A DNA stretch of 64,000 nt, taken from contig DASPUC010000024.1 of the NCBI GenBank assembly GCA_035623075.1, forward strand, positions 248,001 to 312,000, written 5' to 3'. This DNA comes from Nitrospiraceae bacterium. Its GTDB lineage: Bacteria; Nitrospirota; Nitrospiria; Nitrospirales; Nitrospiraceae. The notes under the pieces were generated by a model, which searched no databases, was not told the origin of the DNA, and was given only the letters and a program-made list of their open reading frames with translations. Shown in pieces: positions 35,851 through 38,398 of this stretch; position 1 is the stretch's first letter, and each line of letters opens with the position of its first letter. Position numbers and translations under genes: made by a program.

Positions 35851-36891
35851 CTACGTATCCCACGTCCCGCCTTCTTTGTAGAGTTTGTTCATGATGTCGT
35901 TCTTCTTCTGCGGGTCCCGCTCGTACTTGATGGCCTTGGTGTAGTTCTCAATCGCCAATTGCACCTTGCCGCGGCTCGCATAGACTTTGGCCACGCCGAG
36001 ATACGCTCTTGCGTCCTCGGGATCGGCTTTCAGGGCGCGATTGAAGCTGTCCATCGCCTCTTCCCGCTGGCCCCTATCAAAGAGCATCCAGCCGATCGCT
36101 GAGTGGGCCGGTGCGATGTTCGGATTGGCCTCGACCGCCGCTTGATACTCCTTCATCGCCAAATCAGACCGGTTCTTAGTTTCGTACAAGCCGCCCAAGG
36201 CGAAGTGCACTTCACCATCGTTCGGATTCAGACGCAGCGCTTCTTGGTATTCCAAGAGCGCGGCCTGCGTCTTCCCTTGCTCTGCCAGCGCGCAGGCCAA
36301 GTTTGCATGGGCGACGGCATCGTTCGGGTTGAGTTTAATCACTTCGCGGTACTGCGGGATTGCCATCTCCAAACGCCCCTGCTCTTGATAGGCCACGCCC
36401 AGGTTGGTGCGCGCCGGCACGTAGGCGGGATCGAGTCGGACAGCTTCGCGATATTCTTTGATCGCCATTTCGAGATAATCGGCCCGCTCGTGGATTTGCG
36501 CGAGAAAGTAGTGGGGATAGGCGGACAGGGGCGCGAGCTTGGCGGCTTCTTTGTACGATTGGATCGACTGTTCGGATTCTCCCGATTGAGACAAAAAGAG
36601 ACCCATCACGAGGTGGGCATTGGCCTGCCCCGCCTGTCGCACCACGAATCCGTTGACCCATTGTTTGACCTGAGCGATGTCGTCGGCCTCCTGTAGACAG
36701 AGGGCGTGCGTCTGCCAGGCCTCACCAAATTGCCCTCGGATCAGCTGCACGACATTGCGCGCAAAATGCGGCCGCGGGTCTCTGGTCGTTCCGGGAGGCG
36801 GATGCCGGGCCCAGGCGAGCGCCTCTTGCTCTGCAGCATCCCATCGCCCTTCGAGCAGGGTCGCTTCACATTGTGTTTGGTAATCGGGCAT
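35851..36891 (-). CDS. tetratricopeptide repeat protein
   Basis: 346 residues, at least six well-formed TPRs in tandem from about residue 120 to 330, each with the A-x-x-x-LG/A-x-x-Y pattern (for example ARTNLGVAYQEQGRLEMAIP, AHANLACALAEQGKTQAALL, AHSAIGWMLFDRGQREEAMD). No signal peptide or membrane helix, so probably cytoplasmic. It starts 19 bases after the end of the ThyX-like gene and is likely co-transcribed. A scaffold; partner unknown. Confidence 0.85.
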   Translation of the reverse strand: MPDYQTQCEATLLEGRWDAAEQEALAWARHPPPGTTRDPRPHFARNVVQLIRGQFGEAWQTHALCLQEADDIAQVKQWVNGFVVRQAGQANAHLVMGLFLSQSGESEQSIQSYKEAAKLAPLSAYPHYFLAQIHERADYLEMAIKEYREAVRLDPAYVPARTNLGVAYQEQGRLEMAIPQYREVIKLNPNDAVAHANLACALAEQGKTQAALLEYQEALRLNPNDGEVHFALGGLYETKNRSDLAMKEYQAAVEANPNIAPAHSAIGWMLFDRGQREEAMDSFNRALKADPEDARAYLGVAKVYASRGKVQLAIENYTKAIKYERDPQKKNDIMNKLYKEGGTWDT

Positions 36892-36910: not shown

Positions 36911-38398
36911 TTACCTGGTAAGCGTGTCCTCGATATCGGGCGACGTGGCTTGAATGCGATCGCCGAGGGCGGGATAGCGCGCGGTGAGTTTCTGCTTCAT
37001 CAGCCAGGCAACGGTGCGGTACGACCAGTGGCCCTTCACGCCAGACCGGAGTTTGGCGATATATTCGGCCTCGGCATAGTCCATCTTAAACAGGCAGCGA
37101 ACTTTGAATCCGAAGGGAATGGCGTACAGCGCGCCCTCCGCGCTGGATTTCCTAAGCTGCTCGATGTCGACCCGCACGGCGTCCATCGCTTGGCGATACT
37201 CCTGATCCAGTCCCGCTTGCACGAGCGGCGGCGGCACGTCGAATCCGTGGACCGTTGTGAAGTTCTGCTGCACCTGCTGGCAGCGCCGGTGCCGGTGCAG
37301 GTCGCGCCAGCCCCCGATGTCCATCAACACATCGAACGTGAAGGCATAGCCGCTGCGAAATTCCTTGATGAGTTCATCGTACGGCCCTCTGGTGCTCAGC
37401 GCCACGTCGATCGTTTCCTGCTTTTGCTTCTCCGTCCAGCTGCGGACGACTGCGAGCACGTTGCGATAGGGGGCGTGGGACACGCGATAGAGCAACGTCG
37501 TCGCGACCTCGTCCAACGGGTCGTGCGGTTCGATCAGGTCTACCGACTCCGGCTCACCCCACGTCGCCGGTTGATCCAAGCCCGTTCCCTTCAGTACGTC
37601 TTTCGCATATCTGGCGAGGTCCTGGTAGACCCTGGATTGATATTCGTTCGGCTTCGCATGGCGCGCGAGGGTCGGCGCCAACGGTTCGCTCATGCCGGCT
37701 GCCTGGCCGTTGAGTTCCCCCCACAGGTTCACGGGCGGGCGCTGGCAGGCATCCTTGAGGTCGTCTCCAATCATGCGGAGCTCGGGTAACTGCGACGAGA
37801 GGAGTCTCGTGATCTGCTTTTCTAGCGTTCGGATGCTCACGACCTGTCCGACATTTGTCTTGGCCGCGAGCGGCAACAGGTATCGCGTGACGTCGAACGC
37901 GCGTGCGGCGATGGTCCGTTGGTAATCGCCGGGTTTCATGGTTTCCGGGCGAGGTTCCCGCTCCGACAGAAATTGAGTCAATGGTTGGTGCAGGAGGCGA
38001 TAGGCTTCGGCAAGGCTCCGGAGGATGCCATGGTACGTTCCCTCCGTTTCCGACCCGCGCAGGCTGTCCGGAATGTACCATGCGCCAGAGGCGAAGTTCT
38101 GATAGCGGCTTGATTTTGCCTGCCCGTCCCATAACGGTTCGTCCTCGAGGCGGATCGCCGCAAGTTCGGAAACGTCCTCGAAACAAATGATGACATGGCC
38201 GAGGTCGGCGATCGACGCGTGCCCGTAGTCAAAGTAGAACTGATCCCAGAATTTCTCTGAGGAATGGCCGTGCACCCAGCGGATGCTGCTCTCGATGGAA
38301 TCGGGCGAACGGCTGTAGCGGGCAAGGGCGTAGGCCGACTTCTCCGGCGGCATGGGAGCCACTGCGATCACGCGTCGGTTGGATTGATCCTGGCTCAT
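36911..38398 (-). CDS. tandem two-domain ThyX-like (FAD-dependent thymidylate synthase family) protein
   Basis: 495 residues, about twice the length of normal ThyX, with two related halves. The first half has the ThyX stretch DYGHASIADLGHV and a SSRYQNF box (Ser96-Tyr99) but lacks the RHR. The second half has HRHRRCQQVQQNF (Arg369) but lacks the serines of the RHRxxS signature. So each half holds only part of the active-site motif. Whether it methylates dUMP is uncertain; it may be a flavin protein with another role. It begins MSQDQSNRRVIAVAPMP at 38398 and is divergent from hisS. Confidence 0.72.
   Translation of the reverse strand: MSQDQSNRRVIAVAPMPPEKSAYALARYSRSPDSIESSIRWVHGHSSEKFWDQFYFDYGHASIADLGHVIICFEDVSELAAIRLEDEPLWDGQAKSSRYQNFASGAWYIPDSLRGSETEGTYHGILRSLAEAYRLLHQPLTQFLSEREPRPETMKPGDYQRTIAARAFDVTRYLLPLAAKTNVGQVVSIRTLEKQITRLLSSQLPELRMIGDDLKDACQRPPVNLWGELNGQAAGMSEPLAPTLARHAKPNEYQSRVYQDLARYAKDVLKGTGLDQPATWGEPESVDLIEPHDPLDEVATTLLYRVSHAPYRNVLAVVRSWTEKQKQETIDVALSTRGPYDELIKEFRSGYAFTFDVLMDIGGWRDLHRHRRCQQVQQNFTTVHGFDVPPPLVQAGLDQEYRQAMDAVRVDIEQLRKSSAEGALYAIPFGFKVRCLFKMDYAEAEYIAKLRSGVKGHWSYRTVAWLMKQKLTARYPALGDRIQATSPDIEDTLTR

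Follow-up and report, generated by a model that had tools for sequence, protein, structure and literature searches.

Each active site of canonical ThyX, the flavin-dependent thymidylate synthase (FDTS), draws on three subunits (PMC6514825). In the numbering of Mycobacterium tuberculosis (Mtb) ThyX, subunit A supplies the RHR motif for FAD and dUMP and Arg199 for dUMP, subunit B supplies Ser71 and Arg190 for FAD, and subunit C supplies Arg87, Ser105, and Arg107 for dUMP together with Tyr108 of the lid (PMC6514825). A separate structure paper assigns Gln75 and Arg182 to one monomer and Ser88/Gln89 to another (PMC3498832). A 2009 paper mentions a duplicated ThyX of Chloroflexi and calls it "not characterized" (PMC3224940).

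The window, a stretch of 64,000 nucleotides of Nitrospiraceae DNA, carries a tandem ThyX gene at 36911..38398 on the minus strand (495 residues and a stop codon). Pfam Thy1 (PF02511) matches the product in two stretches with 92.5 bits against a curated cut-off of 24.8 (E 3.6e-26 for the whole protein). The best stretch is residues 352–476, and the two halves score 50.9 and 39.6 bits in the genome search, each above the curated cut-off. The cut-off of the NCBIfam equivalog TIGR02170 (thyX) is missed (23.2 vs 87.9 bits). The N-terminal half (N half; residues 1–262, 37613..38398, minus strand) aligns with canonical ThyX with an hhalign E value of 1.3e-7 and the C-terminal half (C half; residues ~290–479, 36962..37531, minus strand) with 3.8e-11, both boundaries being approximate. 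The initial annotation had read this ORF as a tandem ThyX-like protein, and the two Thy1 domains bear this reading out. A misassigned reading frame was considered for the ORF and rejected.

The gene is present in single copy and is found across the order Nitrospirales at 64–89% identity, plus one copy at 44%. The copy 44% identical to the window protein, in one genome of the same family, suggests replacement by a divergent relative. A TPR-repeat gene (35851..36891, minus strand) lies immediately 3′, 19 bp past the stop codon. Its co-direction with the ThyX gene, remarked on earlier, is kept more widely; the two genes adjoin in 78 of 80 Nitrospirota loci, some of them shortened by contig ends, and always on the same strand. 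They possibly form an operon. The flanks in Nitrospira are this conserved TPR gene and a divergent hisS.

Each half was aligned as a profile (hhalign) to a profile of single-domain ThyX made from same-phylum sequences and those of Mtb and Thermotoga maritima (Tm). The Mtb and Tm sequences were taken from PDB alignments, and the Mtb numbering was verified residue by residue. All 13 single-domain ThyX (11 from the same phylum, Mtb, and Tm) hold the full active-site set within one chain, though a few of them differ by having Thr71, Phe108, or His190.

The alignment of the N half is gap-free near the motif. In this half (all positions on the minus strand), Ser62 (38213..38215) corresponds to Mtb Ser71, which has the subunit-B role at the FAD phosphates, and Ser96-Ser97-Arg98-Tyr99 (38102..38113) corresponds to Mtb Ser105-x-Arg107-Tyr108, which has the subunit-C role at the dUMP site and lid. 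Asp86-Glu87-Pro88 (38135..38143) falls on Mtb Arg95-His96-Arg97, where RHR is lost. Arg172 (37883..37885) corresponds to Mtb Arg172 and is invariant in tandem and canonical ThyX. Arg190 (37829..37831), corresponding to Mtb Arg190 in the subunit-B role, is kept here, though its partition is inconsistent in the wider family. The position of Mtb Arg87 is occupied by Glu78; Arg87 is missing from Tm ThyX too. Arg198 adjoins the N-half position of Arg199, and in Nitrospira the loss of Arg199 hinges on gap placement; across the family, the column of Arg198 varies and position 199 is always Leu, Phe, or Met.

In the C half, RHR is present as Arg369-His370-Arg371 (37286..37294, minus strand), with the subunit-A role toward FAD and dUMP, and Arg451 (37046..37048, minus strand) corresponds to Mtb Arg199 and Tm Arg174, with the subunit-A role toward dUMP. 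Residues 374–381 (QQVQQNFT; 37256..37279, minus strand) correspond in degenerate form to the Ser105/Arg107/Tyr108 element; here the positions of Ser105 and Arg107 are occupied by Gln377 and Asn379, or by Asn379 and Thr381 if the gap is omitted. Counterparts of Ser71, Ser105, Arg107, Arg172, and Arg190 are all absent from the C half in the profile alignment. The motif RHRxxSxxxxSxR is therefore never whole in one domain of tandem ThyX, RHR being in the C half only and SxR in the N half only. Once both halves are combined, Ser71, Arg95-His96-Arg97, Ser105, Arg107, Tyr108, Arg190, and Arg199 are all present. The earlier description of an N half with SSRY and without RHR, and of a C half with RHR and without the conserved serines, agrees with this alignment, in which the motifs fall on the true active-site positions. 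Taken with the subunit roles in canonical ThyX, the alignment assigns the A role to the C half and leaves the B and C roles to the N half.

The same partition is found in distant tandem proteins. Full-length tandem homologues with 20–38% identity are detected by tblastn on plasmids of Actinomycetota, Bacteroidota, and Bacillota and in cyanobacterial, Vibrio, and Tunturiibacter phages, and extra sequences were drawn from IMG/VR. The contig scan gave only Nitrospirota among the 80 matches listed, and the other phyla come from the plasmids, phages, and IMG/VR. Two viral scans, with the Tunturi/Nitrospira alignment and with Tunturi alone as queries, gave no matches. Among 33 tandem proteins, drawn from phages and from several phyla, RHR and Arg199 sit in the C half (33/33), and Ser71, Ser105, Arg107, and Arg172 sit in the N half (33/33), as does Tyr108 in 32. 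Conversely, Arg95 or His96 occurs in the N half in 0/33, Ser105 is never found in the C half, and the partitioned counterparts in the other half are unconserved. The exception is Arg190, which is replaced by Gln in the N half and found as Arg in the C half in a Parabacteroides/Miltoncostaea-like group.

Invariance was counted over the 495 columns in 20 tandem representatives with mutual identity below 60%. Only 12 columns are invariant (S29, R30, S62, S96, R98, R172, P176, E206, R369, H370, R371, and R451). They include eight of the nine retained active-site positions and none of the nine counterparts in the other half. The hypergeometric P value for this overlap is 5e-14 (5e-12 without R172), and chance resemblance of the motifs was rejected on these statistics. 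Ser29-Arg30 (in an SRS motif, residues 29–31), Pro176, and Glu206 are also invariant across these tandems, referred to here as type I. In an IMG/VR prophage-like contig (L231, 525-3194), an apparent intein splits tandem ThyX exactly at the conserved YGH-Ser, the Ser62 equivalent; another such contig (L232) holds the end of a comparable insert.

Both halves are folded in the AF2 model built from a diverse alignment (pLDDT 81.3, pTM 0.81). This alignment was used instead of Nitrospira sequences alone, which give a poor model (pLDDT 58.9, pTM 0.46). In a PDB structure search with the AF2 model, the matches listed are ThyX with a probability of 1.00, all of them single-domain; phmmer with the sequence against PDB gave no match. 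Placements of N and C halves at the four positions in a D2 tetramer, a symmetry assumed from canonical ThyX, were then enumerated. A single arrangement, plus its symmetry equivalent, yields any complete site, and it has exactly two complete sites, the other two lacking all three elements. This enumeration, together with the residue partition, predicts a homodimer of tandem chains in which each site extends across both chains.

We consider it very probable, judging from the sequences, that the protein is a working flavin-dependent thymidylate synthase, duplicated and fused, which acts as a two-chain assembly with two composite sites. Two tandem chains would form the usual four-domain ThyX body, and each whole site would draw on a single C half and on the N halves of both chains. 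The canonical site composition and the residue partition suggest that, at each site, the C half of one chain would provide RHR and Arg199; of the two N halves, one would provide the serine at the FAD phosphates and the other the Ser/Arg/Tyr that binds dUMP. At the two remaining potential sites, an N half takes the RHR role; none of the elements is left there, and no catalysis is expected.

The initial annotation had proposed that the halves complement each other within one molecule. RHR/Arg199 and Ser/Arg/Tyr are indeed both within one chain, and the pTM of 0.81 suggests that the halves pack together, as an active monomer would need if its two domains were to rebuild one complete site by themselves. 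However, Ser71 and Ser105/Arg107 come from different subunits of the three in canonical sites (PMC6514825), so an intramolecular pair would not be expected to be enough, and complete sites appear only in the four-domain arrangement. An active monomer is therefore improbable. Rebuilding of a site from both halves is strongly supported, but the purely intramolecular pair is not, since a dimer of tandem chains is the only assembly that agrees with the partition.

The host genome (3.39 Mb, 99.9% complete), whose closest named relatives among the matches listed in the contig scan are Nitrospira, was surveyed for other thymidylate enzymes. ThyA, thymidine kinase, and DHFR_1 are not found in it, and the two halves of tandem ThyX are its only Thy1 matches; the survey for thyA or a canonical thyX that had been suggested earlier thus finds neither, and this check, like that of the motif positions, favours complementing halves. 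Across the order, ThyA exceeds the cut-off in 0/118 genomes, and Thy1 is found in 113/118, nearly always as two matches. Thymidine kinase is found in 0/58 genomes and DHFR in 1/58. The ThyX-only genotype without DHFR is already known (PMC1971073). Since ThyA, a single ThyX, and thymidine kinase are all missing from the genome, tandem ThyX is probably the sole dTMP source of the host cell. The near absence of DHFR_1 from Nitrospirales bears on how dihydrofolate made de novo is reduced in them. Three Nitrospirales genomes have an additional canonical single-domain ThyX beside the tandem one.

These observations bear on a new flavin-dependent role, which had also been proposed for the protein. 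It might bind FAD, and perhaps a nucleotide, for another function, with dTMP made by an unrecognised enzyme; its divergence from canonical ThyX and its score under the NCBIfam equivalog cut-off are compatible with this. Such a role is nevertheless very unlikely, because the dUMP and FAD contacts, with the Tyr lid, are exactly the residues that are invariant and no dTMP source other than this gene is identifiable. The lack of ThyA and thymidine kinase, with DHFR mostly missing, is the classic ThyX-only genotype, and a relative adjoins dCMP deaminase in phage Tunturi_5. A degenerate pseudo-enzyme whose motifs decay independently in each half would explain why either half alone is without essential motif residues, but it can be practically dismissed, and a pseudogene was rejected as already contradicted by conservation: losses of the partitioned contacts never overlap, the residues kept do not vary among proteins of different phyla and phages at 20–30% identity, and no orthologue listed has an internal stop.

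A second tandem type (type II; 520–570 residues) is found in other Nitrospirota families, and a Thermomicrobium protein is 45% identical to it. Its N half has HSH or HAH where RHR is expected and keeps SQRY, and its C half has RHR and Arg199 without SxRY, so that the polarity of RHR/Arg199 versus Ser105/Arg107/Tyr108 is identical in the two types. In a tree of the halves, type I C halves group together (UFBoot 98), and the tree does not separate one shared type I/II fusion from separate ones. It is conceivable, though rather doubtful, that a four-site homotetramer became, by fusion, an obligate two-site enzyme on at least two independent occasions (types I and II), with the same polarity of loss, and that the two pockets emptied in each complex also gained another role, for example in controlling dTMP synthesis allosterically.

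The composite-site thymidylate synthase proposed here amounts to a natural complementation experiment within one gene. The residues that each half may lose independently confirm the three-subunit site of ThyX inferred from crystals, and the partition predicts that Nitrospira, which are nitrite oxidisers, and several phages have a thymidylate synthase with two sites that depends on dimerisation. Direct tests become possible of whether all four ThyX sites are needed and of whether the sites communicate with one another. A standard ThyX motif search misses tandem enzymes because no single domain holds the whole motif. The ThyX of Chlamydia trachomatis was reportedly studied experimentally by Griffin in 2005; if it is tandem, a tandem ThyX has already been assayed.

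Several known proteins can be compared with the window protein. PGAP and PHROGs already label such tandem proteins thymidylate synthase. PHROG 36506 "thymidylate synthase" (phage, profile length 491) matches residues 21–465 in one stretch with an E value of 4.1e-31. Phage Ma-LMM01 and its relatives have the partition of the Nitrospira tandem ThyX; the family is phage-borne, and the phage relatives found are 20–38% identical. The PGAP "FAD-dependent thymidylate synthase" proteins of 516–572 residues on plasmids of Parabacteroides, Bacillus, Paenibacillus, Euzebya, and Miltoncostaea are full-length tandem homologues with the same partition, but they are only 21–26% identical to the Nitrospira protein, and some of them treat Arg190 differently. 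In a literature search with limited coverage of subscription papers, a partition of residues by subunit role is not described. The duplicated ThyX of Chloroflexi (Valas and Bourne 2009, PMC3224940) shares the tandem architecture, but split active-site residues are not mentioned there, and the Nitrospira protein forms a type of its own, and a very divergent one. Compared with canonical ThyX (Tm TM0449, PDB 1O26; Mtb ThyX, PDB 3GWC), the fold of each half, the Thy1 domain, and the active-site residue set are alike. However, the canonical enzyme is a single-domain homotetramer of ~220–270-residue chains with four equal sites, whereas tandem ThyX has two fused, non-equivalent halves and two predicted sites.
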